A stretch of DNA of 36,078 nt from the NCBI GenBank assembly GCA_903847975.1, contig CAINFC010000103.1, positions 1 to 36,078 of the forward strand. Direction: 5' to 3'. The notes under the pieces are model-generated. The model saw only the letters and a list, made by a program, of their open reading frames with translations. It was not told where the DNA came from and made no database searches. This DNA comes from an uncultured Acidobacteriota bacterium (GTDB lineage Bacteria > Acidobacteriota > UBA6911 > CAINFC01). The translations under genes were made by a program, and so were the position numbers. The number at the start of each line of letters is the position of its first letter. The stretch's first letter is position 1. This document shows positions 2,504 through 30,633 of the stretch, in pieces.

Positions 2504-3967
2504 ATGAAAATCGAAATAACGCGCCGCAATTTCCTGGGGGCATCCGCCTCGATGGCGACGGCCGCTTCCCTGGGAAACGGCGAGGGGTTGGGGGCCGCGA
2601 CCGCGCAACCTCCGAATGTGGTTTTTGTTTTTGCCGACCAGTGGCGCGCCCAGGATGCCGGCTATGCCGGCAATCCCCAGGTTCGCACCCCGAACCTGGA
2701 CCGCATGGCGGAGCGGAGCGCGGTGTTTGCCAATGCGGTTTCCGGCTGCCCGGTGTGCAGCCCCTACCGGGCCAGCCTGCTGACCGGCCAGTACTGGCAC
2801 CGCCACGGGATTTTCTACAACGATAAGCCGCTGGCTGGAGAAGCCCGATCCATGGGCAAGCTGTTCGCCGAAGCGGGCTACGATACCGCCTATATCGGCA
2901 AGTGGCATCTGAACGGCCATCCTCCCGGCATCGACTACCAGGAAAGCCGCAACGCGCCCGTCCCGCGGGAACGAAGGCAGGGATTTCAATACTGGAAGGC
3001 GCGGGAGTGCACCCACGAGTACAACCAGTCCTACTATTTCGACGAACAGGACCGCCGGTGCCAGTGGGAAGGGTATGACAGCATTGCCCAGACGCGGATG
3101 GCCGTCGAGTACCTGAAAAGCCGCCGGAAGGCCGAAGGGCGGCCGTTTCTGATGGTCCTCTCCTGGGGCCCGCCTCACGACCCCTACCACACCGCCCCGG
3201 AGGAGTTCCGCTCCCTCTACCCGGATCCGGCGAAGATCGCGCTGCGCCCCAACGTGCCGGCGGCTTCCGAATCCGCGGCCCAAAAGGTACTGGCGGGCTA
3301 TTACGCGCATATTGCCGCCCTGGACCGCTGCCTCGGGGAGCTGCAGCAGGCCCTTCAGGAAACCGGGCTGGAGGAGAACACGGTTTTTGTATTTACCTCG
3401 GATCACGGAGACATGCTCTACTCGCAGGGGCAGACCATGAAGCAGAAGCCCTGGGACGAAAGCATCCGGGTGCCCTTTCTGCTGCGCTTTCCGGCCCGGC
3501 TGGGAAACCGGTCGAGGAACGTGCAGGCCCCGATCAATACTCCGGATATCCTGCCGACGCTGCTGGGGCTCTGCCGGCTGCCGATTCCCGCCGCCGTGGA
3601 CGGCCGGGACTACACCCCGTTGCTGGCCGGGGGGCGGGAGACAGGGGAGGAGGCCGCGCTGCTGGCCTGCCTGGTCCCCTTTCACCAGTGGAACTACCGG
3701 AATGGCGGGCGGGAGTACCGCGGGCTGCGCACCGCCCGCTATACCTACGTGCGGGACCTGCGCGGCCCCTGGCTTTTCTACGACAACCGGCAGGATCCAT
3801 TTCAATTGACCAACCTGTGCGGCCGGAAGGAATTCGTCTCCCTGCAGAAAGAGATGGAAAAGCAGCTCGCGCAGCAGCTCCGCCGGGCGGGCGATCGGTT
3901 TCTCCCCGGGCCGGAGTACATGCGCCAGTGGGGGTATACCTGGGACGGGCAGGACCGGCCCTCCTAA
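2504..3967 (+). CDS. Tat-exported sulfatase (type I, formylglycine-dependent)
   Basis: This 487-residue protein hydrolyses sulfate esters, probably on polysaccharides, outside the cytoplasm. The N-terminus has the twin-arginine motif TRRNFLG (residues 6-12) followed by an Ala-rich segment. The active-site signature C85-S-P-Y-R89 precedes ASLLTG; Cys85 is the residue oxidised to formylglycine in this family. The metal-site segments FADQ (about 43-46) and TSDHGD (about 302-307) are present, as is GKWH (about 132-135). AGGAGG lies 8 nt before the ATG, and a strong promoter sits at 2369. The next gene starts 45 bp downstream and is probably co-transcribed. The substrate cannot be told from the sequence. 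No maturation enzyme (FGE or anSME) is in the window, so it must be encoded elsewhere. Confidence 0.93.
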   Translation: MKIEITRRNFLGASASMATAASLGNGEGLGAATAQPPNVVFVFADQWRAQDAGYAGNPQVRTPNLDRMAERSAVFANAVSGCPVCSPYRASLLTGQYWHRHGIFYNDKPLAGEARSMGKLFAEAGYDTAYIGKWHLNGHPPGIDYQESRNAPVPRERRQGFQYWKARECTHEYNQSYYFDEQDRRCQWEGYDSIAQTRMAVEYLKSRRKAEGRPFLMVLSWGPPHDPYHTAPEEFRSLYPDPAKIALRPNVPAASESAAQKVLAGYYAHIAALDRCLGELQQALQETGLEENTVFVFTSDHGDMLYSQGQTMKQKPWDESIRVPFLLRFPARLGNRSRNVQAPINTPDILPTLLGLCRLPIPAAVDGRDYTPLLAGGRETGEEAALLACLVPFHQWNYRNGGREYRGLRTARYTYVRDLRGPWLFYDNRQDPFQLTNLCGRKEFVSLQKEMEKQLAQQLRRAGDRFLPGPEYMRQWGYTWDGQDRPS

Positions 3968-5928: not shown

Positions 5929-6025
5929 AAGGAGTTTTAAGAAGGAGTTTTAAGGACACCCACTTTTCAAGGTTTTAAGCAAGGTTTTAAGGACACCCAC
6001 TTTTCATTGAAAAGAAGAGGTGTTC
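5929..6025. repeat. Tandem repeats joined to two GGACACCCACTTTT elements
   Basis: AAGGAGTTTTAAG occurs twice in tandem (5929-5941, 5942-5954). GGACACCCACTTTT follows at 5954-5967. CAAGGTTTTAAG then occurs twice in tandem (5968-5979, 5980-5991), and a second GGACACCCACTTTT is at 5991-6004. The second copy can fold with CTTTTC/GAAAAG around loop ATT and with the degenerate arm GGTGTTC near 6020-6026. This is the same design as the hairpins at 29705-29740 and 29837-29872. The layout suggests element insertion with local duplication of its flanks. Confidence 0.75.
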
Positions 6026-6046: not shown

Positions 6047-6133
6047 AGTTACACGGAAACAGCGGATGGGACGGAGGAAGGCCGATCCGATCCGCTTTGA
6101 TCCATACAATCCGCTGTTTCCGCGGAGCCGGAA
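6047..6133. repeat. 87-bp palindromic repeat, copy A
   Basis: It matches copy B (7381-7467) at all but about 5 of 87 positions, in the same orientation. CGGAAACAGCGGA (6054-6066) pairs perfectly with TCCGCTGTTTCCG (6110-6122) across a 43-nt centre that contains the internal direct repeat GATCCGATCC. The right outer end has decayed relative to copy B. Copy A ends exactly at the stop codon of the acyltransferase gene (6134-6136 on the minus strand). Confidence 0.85.
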
Positions 6134-7285
6134 TCAGACTTTGAAAAAGATTCCCTTTTTATAAAGGAAGAGGAGCAGCAGCCATTTTACCGTCAGAATA
6201 CCGCAGGGCAGAATCAGGGGCTCCCAGGTACCGGCATGGGCGGCAACACCGCCCAGAAAAAAAGCGGCGATTTTGTGGAAATCCACAATCTGCTGGGAAA
6301 CGTATATGAAAATGGCGTTCATACCGATGACCGAAAAGAAAAAGGCCCATCGGGTATAGCCTTTCACATCGATGATCCAGTAGAACAGGGCCATCAGCAG
6401 GAAGCACCATCCGCCGGCCCACAGGACGTAGGGGCTGTTCCAGATGTGCTTGTTGATCGGGAAGATCATTCCCCAGAGGTAGCCGCTTCCCAGGCAGGCG
6501 GCGGCACTCAGCAGCAGGCGGTTCATTTTCCAGCGGCTGGTATGCTCCGATTTCAGCCAGGTGCCGGCAAACACGCCGAGCAGCATGGAGCAGGCGGAAG
6601 GGAAGGTTCCCAGCACTCCGGCGCTGTCCCCGAACCCGTAGAACCGCGGCGGAAAACGGCTGTGCATCCACTTTCCGAGAATCTGCTGGTCCACATAGCT
6701 GTGCAGGTTTCCTTCCGGCGTCAAATTGCCTGCTCCGAAGCCGGGAACGGGGACCAGCATCATAGCTGCCCAATACAGCACAAGCGTGGCGGCAAAAAGG
6801 GCAGCCTGGGCTCGCGGCCGGGTGTTCAGCACCAGCAGGGAAACCAGCAGGTAGCAAAGGCCGATCCGCTGCAGAACTCCCGTCCAGCGCAGATTGGAAA
6901 AATCGAAGGCCAATACCCCGCCGACCAGCAGGCCGAGTGCGATCAGAACCAGGGACCGGCGGACGATGTGCAGGTAGAGCCGCATTCGGTTCTGTCCCCG
7001 GTCGGCGCGCCGAAAAAGGGAGAAAGGGAATACCGCACCGATGATGAAAAAGAACAGGGGAAAGATCACATCGTAAAAGGTAAAGCCGTTCCATAGCGGG
7101 TGCTCGAGCTGGCCGGCGACCAGGCGGGTGAAGGGCGTATCGGCCACCTTGGGCAGGCTCCTGCCGATCAGGTCGCCGCCGATGATCCAGAACATGTCGA
7201 ATCCGCGCAGGGCATCCAGGGATCGGATTCTTTCCTTTGTCGGTCGAGGAGGAGTGTCTTCTTCAAGGGGCATAGGCGCATTCAT
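6134..7285 (-). CDS. Polytopic membrane acyltransferase-like protein (DUF5009 / HGSNAT-like, NagX type)
   Basis: This 383-residue protein has about ten or eleven hydrophobic membrane segments. The N-terminal signature RSLDALRGFDMFWIIGGD is typical of the family related to human heparan-alpha-glucosaminide N-acetyltransferase and bacterial NagX. Other family-like segments are TFYDVIFPLFFFIIG, RWTGVLQRIGLCYL and a VLWAGGWCFLLMALFYWIID stretch near residues 285-305. Length is normal. Family members are thought to move acyl groups or amino sugars across the membrane; the substrate here is unknown. It has its own promoter at 7324-7352 and little Shine-Dalgarno signal. Near-identical 87-bp repeats stand on both sides, copy A touching the stop codon. 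A role in glycan use alongside the nearby sulfatases is plausible but is inference. Confidence 0.88.
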   Translation of the reverse strand: MNAPMPLEEDTPPRPTKERIRSLDALRGFDMFWIIGGDLIGRSLPKVADTPFTRLVAGQLEHPLWNGFTFYDVIFPLFFFIIGAVFPFSLFRRADRGQNRMRLYLHIVRRSLVLIALGLLVGGVLAFDFSNLRWTGVLQRIGLCYLLVSLLVLNTRPRAQAALFAATLVLYWAAMMLVPVPGFGAGNLTPEGNLHSYVDQQILGKWMHSRFPPRFYGFGDSAGVLGTFPSACSMLLGVFAGTWLKSEHTSRWKMNRLLLSAAACLGSGYLWGMIFPINKHIWNSPYVLWAGGWCFLLMALFYWIIDVKGYTRWAFFFSVIGMNAIFIYVSQQIVDFHKIAAFFLGGVAAHAGTWEPLILPCGILTVKWLLLLFLYKKGIFFKV

Positions 7286-7380: not shown

Positions 7381-7479
7381 AGTTACACGGAAACAGCGGA
7401 AGGGACGGAGGAAGGCCGATCCGATCCGCTGTGATCCAAACAATCCGCTGTTTCCGCGTAACCGGAAAAATGGGTGTCC
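7381..7479. repeat. 87-bp palindromic repeat, copy B, followed by a half element
   Basis: This is the better preserved copy. TTACACGGAAACAGCGGA (7383-7400) pairs with TCCGCTGTTTCCGCGTAA (7444-7461) over 18 bp with one mismatch; the loop is 43 nt. The repeat proper is 7381-7467. It runs straight into AAATGGGTGTCC (7468-7479), the inverted core of the GGACACCCA element found at 5.95 and 29.7 kb. The tandem pair TTTTTCAC follows. Confidence 0.85.
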
Positions 7480-28709: not shown

Positions 28710-29684
28710 TTGAACATCCAGGATATTTTTAATTTAGTAGCCCCGCAGATCCGGGAAGTGGAAGAAGAGCTGCGGCGGCAGGCCGGATCCCATGTCTTTC
28801 TGATCCGCAGGATCGGGGAGTATCTGCAGTCCGGCGGAGGAAAGCGGCTGCGGCCGGTGGTGATGGTTCTTTCCTCGCGCCTGTGCGGCTTTGAGGGCCC
28901 CGAAGTCATCCGCCTGGCGGCGGTGGTGGAGCTGATTCACACCGCCACGCTGGTGCACGACGATATCATTGACAATGCCGATTTGCGCCGGGGGCGCCCC
29001 TCGGTCAACGCCAGCTGGGGCAACGGGATTACGGTGCTGATGGGCGACTGGCTGTTCATGACCTCCATTGGCCTGGCGCTTTCGCAGCGCGATTTTCGTA
29101 TTCTGGAGGTGCTGACCAACGTCACCCGGAACATGGTTGAAGGGGAGCTCCTGCAGATGGAGCTGCACGGGAAAATGGACATCACCGAGTCCCAGCACCT
29201 GGAAATTTCCGAGTATAAAACCGCCCGGCTGTTTTCCGCCTGCTCCGGAATGGGGGCCATTCTCAGCGAAGCCGATCCGCAGCGCGTGGAGGATCTGGAA
29301 AGCTATGGACGCAACCTGGGCATGGCCTTCCAGCTGGCCGACGATCTGCTGGATTTCACCTCGCGCCCCGAGGTTCTGGGCAAGCCGGTCATCCACGACC
29401 TGAGAGAAGGGAAAGTTACCCTGCCGATCATTTATCTCCTGGAGGATGGGTGCCCTTCCTACCTGGATAAGGTGAATGCCGCCATCCAGGAGAATGGACG
29501 CGAGGATCTGGCCAAGCAGGATCTGCTGCGGCTGATTGCCGAAACCCGAACCCTGGACCGGGCCCGGGCCCGGGCGATCGGTTTTTCCGAGAAGGCCAAA
29601 GAATCCCTTGCCGGGTTCCCGGACAGCGTGGCCAAAAAAGCCCTCCTCGGCCTGGCCGACTTTGTTGTCTCCCGCAACAGCTAA
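28710..29684 (+). CDS. ispB: Long-chain polyprenyl diphosphate synthase
   Basis: A 324-residue trans-prenyltransferase. The first Asp-rich motif is D84-D-I-I-D88 in LVHDDIIDNADLRRGRPS. The second is D211-D-L-L-D215 in FQLADDLLD. GGGKRLRP for substrate binding is at about 47-54. It makes the octaprenyl-like or similar side chain of respiratory quinones; the exact chain length cannot be read with confidence. The start is a TTG at 28710, 16 bp after the yajQ stop. The stop codon TAA lies within GCTAAAAAAG, the first unit of the repeat array that fills the gap to the convergent smr gene. Confidence 0.93.
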   Translation: MNIQDIFNLVAPQIREVEEELRRQAGSHVFLIRRIGEYLQSGGGKRLRPVVMVLSSRLCGFEGPEVIRLAAVVELIHTATLVHDDIIDNADLRRGRPSVNASWGNGITVLMGDWLFMTSIGLALSQRDFRILEVLTNVTRNMVEGELLQMELHGKMDITESQHLEISEYKTARLFSACSGMGAILSEADPQRVEDLESYGRNLGMAFQLADDLLDFTSRPEVLGKPVIHDLREGKVTLPIIYLLEDGCPSYLDKVNAAIQENGREDLAKQDLLRLIAETRTLDRARARAIGFSEKAKESLAGFPDSVAKKALLGLADFVVSRNS

Positions 29685-29695
29685 AAAAGCAGCCA

Positions 29696-29935
29696 GCTAA
29701 AAAAGGACACCCACTTTTCCAACGGAAAAAATGGGTGTCCTGAATCATTGTTCCTGAATCATTCGTTCGAAGAAAAAAAGTGGGTGTCCTGAACCTAAAA
29801 AAGGACACCCACTTTCCCAAAGAAGAACCTAAAAAAGGACACCCACTTTCCCAACGAAAAAAATGGGTGTCCTGAATCAGGAAGAAAAAAAGTGGGTGTC
29901 CTGATTCATGATTCACTCATTCACTGAATCAGGAC
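29696..29935. repeat. Array of seven GGACACCCACTTT elements in two orientations
   Basis: Forward cores begin at 29705, 29803 and 29837. Inverted cores (TGGGTGTCC) lie at 29732-29740, 29781-29789, 29864-29872 and 29893-29901. Two pairs form near-identical 36-nt hairpins (29705-29740, 29837-29872) with a 9-bp outer stem and a T/A-rich inner stem closing on AAC or AACG. Forward units are preceded by CTAAAAAA, and most inverted units are followed by CTGAATCA or a similar tail. The array fills the gap between convergent genes ispB and smr; the smr stop codon falls in the last CTGAATCAGGA tail. Related units lie at 5954, 5991 and 7471. Confidence 0.9.
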
Positions 29936-30633
29936 CAGGGGAGCGGGAAACGGGAGTGGCTCCGGGACGGCGCTTTCTTCCTTTTTTTATGGCGGCCGGG
30001 CTGCTCGGTGCTCTTTTTCAACCCTCCGCGGAGCAGAACATAGACCGCACCGAATCCGCCATCATTGGGACGTGCTGAGGAGTAGGCCAGCACGTTCCGG
30101 CTGATGCGCCTCGTAGCCAGCCACTGCTGCAGAAGCTGCTTGAGAATCGCCCGGTTTTCCTTGGAGTTGTGCCCCCGGCCGTGGATGATCTTGACGCACC
30201 CTTTGCGCATTTGAACCGCATGCAGCAGAAAGGTTTCCACCTGGCGGCGGGCCTGATCGCGATCCATGCCGTGCAGGTCCAGGGTGTCCTCAACCGAAAA
30301 ATCCCCGCGCCGCAGCCGGCGCAGCAGCGGACGAGCTGCGGGAGTCACCGCCGATTCTATATACTCCTCCGAAAAGGTCAGGTCGAAAGCTCCCTCCCCG
30401 TGGACCAGGGATTGCAATACCTTCAGGGCGTCCTCCTCGTCGTCGTGCCGCGGGCCCGTCGGGGGGGTGGGTCGGTCAAGGGACACCCCTTCGTCCCGAT
30501 GGGGCAGCGGGCGGACATCCCGCATGGCCCAGGCAAAGAGCTCCGCCTCGGAGATCTCATCGGGGATCTCGATGCGCGGGGGTTCCCACTTTTCCTGTCC
30601 TTTCAGGGGTTGCTTGTCTGCTGGTGAAGCCAT
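29929..30633 (-). CDS. Smr-domain protein
   Basis: A 234-residue protein. The N-terminal 120 residues are polar and probably flexible. The Smr (small MutS-related) domain covers about 121-205, with TLDLHGMDRDQAR, IIHGRGHNS and GAVYVLL. Smr domains bind or nick nucleic acids; some act on RNA in ribosome rescue. The C-terminal 30 residues are very basic (KKRKKAPSRSHSR) and run into the repeat array, whose edge supplies the stop codon, so this tail may have been changed by the insertion. The start at 30633 is supported by AGGA about 9 nt upstream; a longer frame from 31629 crosses the divergent genes and is rejected. Confidence 0.88.
   Translation of the reverse strand: MASPADKQPLKGQEKWEPPRIEIPDEISEAELFAWAMRDVRPLPHRDEGVSLDRPTPPTGPRHDDEEDALKVLQSLVHGEGAFDLTFSEEYIESAVTPAARPLLRRLRRGDFSVEDTLDLHGMDRDQARRQVETFLLHAVQMRKGCVKIIHGRGHNSKENRAILKQLLQQWLATRRISRNVLAYSSARPNDGGFGAVYVLLRGGLKKSTEQPGRHKKRKKAPSRSHSRFPLPWS

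Follow-up and report, generated by a model that had tools for sequence, protein, structure and literature searches.

The window (the whole 36,078-nt stretch of DNA analysed here, from an uncultured Acidobacteriota bacterium) carries a dense array of short palindromic sequences between a polyprenyl synthetase gene and an Smr-domain gene, which converge on the array as a sequence-only reading had claimed (Table 1). The gene calls are our own and are based on codon usage, by which the start of smr was also picked. The array between 29705 and 29901 consists of seven copies of the 14-mer GGACACCCAYTTT with 0 to 1 mismatch, three forward and four reverse, and four more are found elsewhere in the window. 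When up to two mismatches are allowed, the window contains 12 matches against 0.13 expected, a number reached in 0 of 100 shuffles, and the dense hairpin array described from the letters is therefore real. It includes the two nearly identical 36-nt hairpins of that description, which match at 34 of 36 positions. Folded as single-stranded DNA, hairpin 1 has an energy of -15 kcal/mol (z = -7.3) and hairpin 2 a z-score of -5.0; together with these two, a third inverted pair at 29776-29816 also folds far better than shuffled sequences. Rfam and tRNA searches of the window gave no matches. An exact copy of the 14-mer at 1761-1774, within a long ORF where it reads KKWVS, has unrepeated flanks and is probably due to chance.

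Table 1. Genes, half-sites, hairpins and private flanks of the repeat family in the window
Feature	Position	Strand	Remark
Polyprenyl synthetase gene (ispB-like)	28710..29684	+	PF00348, 241.5 bits; TAA stop 29682-29684
Left private flank, source, CAGCTAAAAAA	29678-29688	+	Last bases of the polyprenyl synthetase gene, including the TAA stop
Left private flank, second copy, CAGCTAAAAAA	29694..29704	+	
Hairpin 1	29705..29740		GGACACCC half-site (+) 29705-29718 pairs with half-site (-) 29727-29740
Right private flank, TGAATCA	29741-29747, 29755-29761		
Half-site	29776..29789	-	
Shorter left-flank copies, CTAAAAAA	29795-29802, 29829-29836		
Half-site	29803..29816	+	Pairing with 29776-29789 across flanks possible
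Hairpin 2	29837..29872		Half-sites (+) 29837-29850 and (-) 29859-29872
Half-site	29888..29901	-	Then two near-copies of the right flank, TGATTCA, 29902-29908 and 29909-29915
TGAATCA spanning the smr stop codon	29925..29931		Likely source of the right private flank
Smr-domain gene (smr)	29929..30633	-	PF01713, 86.4 bits; TGA stop is the complement of 29929-29931
Array half-site starts	29705, 29803, 29837	+	
Array half-site starts	29727, 29776, 29859, 29888	-	
Two extra half-sites	5941..6004	+	5954-5967 and 5991-6004; private flanks locally repeated (GAAGGAGTTTTAA; CAAGGTTTTAA)
Extra half-site	7466..7479	-	Beside TTACACGG-type repeat

The sequences adjoining the copies had been taken for shared flanks. 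Both CTAAAAAA and CTGAATCA do recur in the array, but they are not parts of the element, because they are the copied 3' ends of the two neighbouring genes, and other loci carry other flanks.

A second dispersed palindromic family, TTACACGGAAACRGCGGA...TCCGCTGTTTCCGYGTAA, is present in the window at 6049-6120 and 7383-7461. Its arm has 66 copies in the genome with at most one mismatch, against 0 for the control, and the family often adjoins or sits within a GGACACCC half-site (loci L039, L043, L044 and L051).

A dispersed half-site family with private flanks

Throughout the 8.13-Mb draft genome, which is 99% complete, the exact 14-mer occurs 86 times versus 0 for the reversed control, and 128 times versus 9 when one mismatch is allowed, so that the motif is dispersed and not limited to the sites in the window. 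It is likewise not common in coding regions: 82 of the 86 exact copies are outside called ORFs and 4 are inside, where the coding share of the DNA examined is 72%. The variant GGACATCCAYTTT has 30 copies against 1 in the control. A near inverted partner is present for 43 of the 86 exact copies, and the unit of the family is the half-site GGACAYCCAYTTTT, found singly or as an inverted pair capable of forming a hairpin. A text search for the motif in open-licence PMC papers found unrelated matches only.

The sequence outside GGACACCC varies between loci but recurs within each locus. For 50 of the 86 copies, at least 7 nt of the copy's own 5' flank is perfectly repeated no more than 60 nt upstream, compared with about 0.9% of control positions, and in other genomes flank repeats accompany 27 of 92 sites versus 1.2% for the control. 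The repeated 5' flanks are mostly 7-13 nt long, and the repeated unit mostly includes either 0-6 nt of the element (G, GG, GGA) or its whole arm (17-26 nt). Assembly error is an unlikely cause, because sequencing reads greatly exceed the units in length and several other genomes show the same pattern.

The sequence-only reading compared the array to REP/BIME elements. The family is REP-like in being intergenic, dispersed, palindromic and present in many copies, and it possesses the trait of REPtrons and RAYTs, a Y1 gene that has inverted copies of one repeat around it, in the gene on contig C18 and in a set of 32 genes described below. It is not a classical REP/BIME. One end of a classical REP bears GTAG or CGTC (PMC3733652), whereas here neither tetranucleotide is present and the foot of the palindrome is GGACACCC, preceded by locus-private sequence. 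The linkers of BIMEs are conserved genome-wide, a trait absent here: each locus has its own sequence between copies, and in the window the linkers are the ends of the two neighbouring genes. There is a close likeness to the REP/BIME/REPIN elements associated with RAYT (TnpA_REP) groups 2 and 3, which are also short, dispersed intergenic palindromes, clustered near an HUH-Y1 gene and inverted around it; the unit here differs in being a half-site, often with no near partner, and the transposase differs in fitting subclass 2.3 and in being missed by Pfam Y1_Tnp.

Half-sites flank subclass 2.3-like transposase genes

No transposase is encoded in the window, as had been noted before, and a search of the genome with Pfam Y1_Tnp (PF01797) recovered only a broken IS200-type TnpA. 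That fragment (G000:C107:12941-13150; loci L031 and L032) covers about 70 of the 121 model positions and has a TTACACGG-type repeat approximately 200 bp upstream. The NCBIfam RAYT model NF047646 found further genes, including three intact HUH-tyrosine paralogs of 351-372 amino acids missed by Pfam Y1_Tnp (C18:22827, C142:20764 and C117:10426, the latter two 50-52% identical to the first). The view that the genome has no RAYT was thereby overturned, the PF01797 negative being due to a limit of the model. The comparison with repeats spread by a RAYT is right in that the genome does encode RAYT-type (HUH-Y1) transposases with this motif on their flanks, outside the window. Further RAYT-like genes of other kinds are encoded by the same genome at G000:C213:3248-3646 (L139) and G000:C46:41648-41926 (L140), with scores of 85 and 68 bits against NF047646.

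The C18 gene has a dense GGACACCC array upstream and inverted copies downstream. Three GGACATCC copies lie upstream of the C117 gene, with five more about 1.5 kb away on the other side, and one copy lies upstream of the C142 gene. The three contigs make up 2.1% of the genome and contain 10 of the 45 GGACACCC clusters, counted by hand (0.9 expected, P ~2e-8). Because the exact GGACACCC core adjoins only the C18 gene among the three, and there with ATTA-type tails, we can only infer which enzyme serves the AYTTTT copies.

The three transposases fit the little-studied TnpA_Y1 subclass 2.3, an assignment made from features and from 35-40% identity rather than from the published tree. The identity is to Alteromonadales and Vibrionales proteins and extends over 86-100% of the length. 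The spacing from HuH to Y is 108-113 residues in all 20 genes measured, and H71, H73, W163-E164 and Y184 are invariant. Together with a YVDLN motif, the protein length, the several diverged copies per genome and the occurrence in Alteromonadales, these features match subclass 2.3 as described, in which the HuH-Y spacing is likewise about 110, the proteins are about 325 amino acids long and have WE and YVDLNP motifs, and there are several diverged copies per genome, with occurrence in the Alteromonadales (PMC6006769). A profile search for a solved relative found none.

The motif was then sought around such genes in other genomes. Among 21 loci of the subclass 2.3-like gene, from the Acidobacteriota phylum and two gammaproteobacterial genomes, GGACAYCCA is found within 400 bp in 16 (72 copies versus 0.22 expected), and six times it stands 76-78 bp ahead of the start codon; the strict core is absent nearby in the other 5. 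Eleven further genes come from plasmids or secondary replicons of Pseudoalteromonas, Shewanella, Catenovulum, Aeromonas, Photobacterium and other gammaproteobacteria, and there the core is often GACACCCA, with a variable first base. Around the 32 genes there are 101 copies of GACAYCCA against ~1.5 expected, oriented 47:12 upstream and 38:4 downstream, which is the pattern of terminal inverted repeats, and for 14 of the 32 genes the inverted arrangement is present on both sides. In the control regions, 84 kb near other Y1_Tnp genes contained 4 copies and 49 kb near weak matches none, compared with 85 in 74 kb. A strong match to the gene (>100 bits) was obtained in 10 of 60 genomes, and at least two motifs were present in those same 10 and in no others; within one family the figures are 9 of 9 versus 0 of 6. 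In two distant bacterial groups, subclass 2.3-like genes and the repeats occur together, with the repeats flanking the genes in inverted orientation.

Other repeat arrangements were encountered in the course of these searches. On plasmid p1 of Pseudoalteromonas shioyasakiensis (L197, ~1225-1440), a block of three AGACAYCC half-sites is tandemly duplicated upstream of the transposase gene WP_217877055.1. An Omnitrophica genome has clean GGACACCCATTT hairpins without flank repeats (MHFI01000036.1, L081, at 1116-1148, 2832-3503 and 7189-7221, and L109); a different RAYT-like gene is located there between two copies of one hairpin subtype, and other copies adjoin what looks like a tRNA gene.

A survey of 2018, using automatic and manual searches, found no REP-like sequences for TnpA_Y1 subclasses 2.1 and 2.3 (PMC6006769), in contrast to the inverted GACAYCCA repeats that flank most of the genes examined here. 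The TIRYT genes of TIRtrons are also Y1 genes with flanking inverted repeats; theirs are G-rich (GGGGWSAS) and in some cases repeated in the genome, and one defined TIRYT group is from Acidobacteria (PMC3733652). Our family differs in that the common core is GACAYCCA and the preceding letters vary by locus, with GGGG ahead of ACA only at loci whose private flank has GG as its last letters. The enzyme also fits subclass 2.3, whereas 20 of the 26 published TIRYTs belong to subclass 2.1.

Copying of the flanks and alternative explanations

We consider it likely, with a probability of roughly 80%, that the array is composed of REP-like non-autonomous elements, the cognate repeats of subclass 2.3 RAYT-like transposases, which have been moved and locally amplified by cutting and rejoining. 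The repeated units start 7-13 nt outside the half-site and end just inside it or at the end of the arm, as would be expected if a cut were made outside the half-site and the end were then extended a little or transferred to another copy. The transposase would recognise the half-site on single-stranded DNA and cut about 7-13 nt beyond its 5' border, and the free 3' end would be extended or joined to the 5' end of another copy. As a result, the element would move, and the private host flank would be repeated locally with the first 0-6 nt of the element or with the whole arm; in the window, an element between the convergent genes would have repeated their 3' ends along with itself. The RAYTs of Escherichia coli and other bacteria make cuts in single-stranded REP DNA on both the 5' and the 3' side of the hairpin and carry out strand transfer (PMC8266576), and priming of synthesis by the free 3' end was proposed by Nunvar and colleagues (PMC2817692). 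No cleavage dinucleotide like CT stands out.

It is also conceivable, at less than even odds, that a RAYT dispersed the elements but took no part in array growth and flank copying, which would then be generic outcomes of polymerase slippage or template switching at hairpins. Paired copies do fold strongly, the unit ends cluster at the hairpin foot (0-6 nt) or near its tip (17-26 nt), and in other systems REPs are known to have been reiterated in tandem together with the DNA beside them. However, flank repeats are about equally frequent in the absence of an inverted partner, accompanying 27 of 43 copies with a near partner, 16 of 28 with only a distant or degenerate one and 7 of 15 with none. 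Microhomology at the flank-repeat junctions is close to chance (mean 1.28 versus 0.71), and the inner side of the same 14-mer is repeated in 4 of 86 copies, by a slightly different test from that used for the outer flank. Hairpin-dependent slippage as the sole cause can be rejected from the slight dependence on a partner and the near-chance microhomology; local amplification by cleavage just outside the half-site and rejoining is probable.

The elements might instead be retained mainly as transcription terminators or stabilisers of mRNA 3' ends, and have spread by selection for such use, but this is improbable. The array lies in a convergent setting, and two strong terminator-like stems with T-runs are present on the minus strand just downstream of smr (29741-29704 and 29873-29836), that of hairpin 1 comprising 17 pairs followed by TTTTT. 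No strong stem-plus-T-run site formed by the array was found on the plus strand, and the two-way terminator that had been envisaged is for that reason unsupported. Furthermore, of the clusters across the genome, 12 have a convergent setting, 13 a tandem one and 7 a divergent one, 3 are located within ORFs and 11 border the end of the stretch read, and many copies are lone half-sites; the inverted copies around transposase genes would be left unexplained. From their sequence, the array elements could be one-way, minus-strand intrinsic terminators of smr, as a by-product. Repair by fill-in and NHEJ of staggered double-strand breaks at the element would account for the blunt-like junctions and for units of mostly 10-14 nt, as 5'-overhang fill-in would leave, but this is very improbable, Ku not having been found in the 99%-complete genome.

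Implications for subclass 2.3 and its repeats

Growth of an array together with its flanks is not new in itself, since reiteration of REPs with flanking DNA and capture of rayt gene ends between copies are already on record for REPs with RAYTs (PMC2817692, PMC3116915, PMC3733652). We found no description in the open-licence PMC literature of a short, one-sided, private flank unit that is independent of a partner. A more specific and rather unlikely interpretation of cutting and rejoining is that subclass 2.3 enzymes are half-site nickases that copy about ten bases of adjoining host DNA. Such an enzyme would nick approximately one helical turn outside the half-site, add a few bases that reach into the element or past it, and rejoin, with no need for a hairpin, sequence homology or Ku. 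Each element would in this way build up a tandem record of the place where it inserted, parts of adjacent genes included, which is private to it and keeps growing.

The GACAYCCA motif is a candidate cognate repeat for subclass 2.3 in two distant bacterial groups, and it may have been overlooked because it lacks a GTAG foot and in many cases forms no hairpin. From the private flank repeats the position of the cut can be predicted, which makes the multiplication of REPs by RAYTs testable with one protein and one oligonucleotide, and these repeats suggest a route by which small elements may copy the ends of neighbouring genes.
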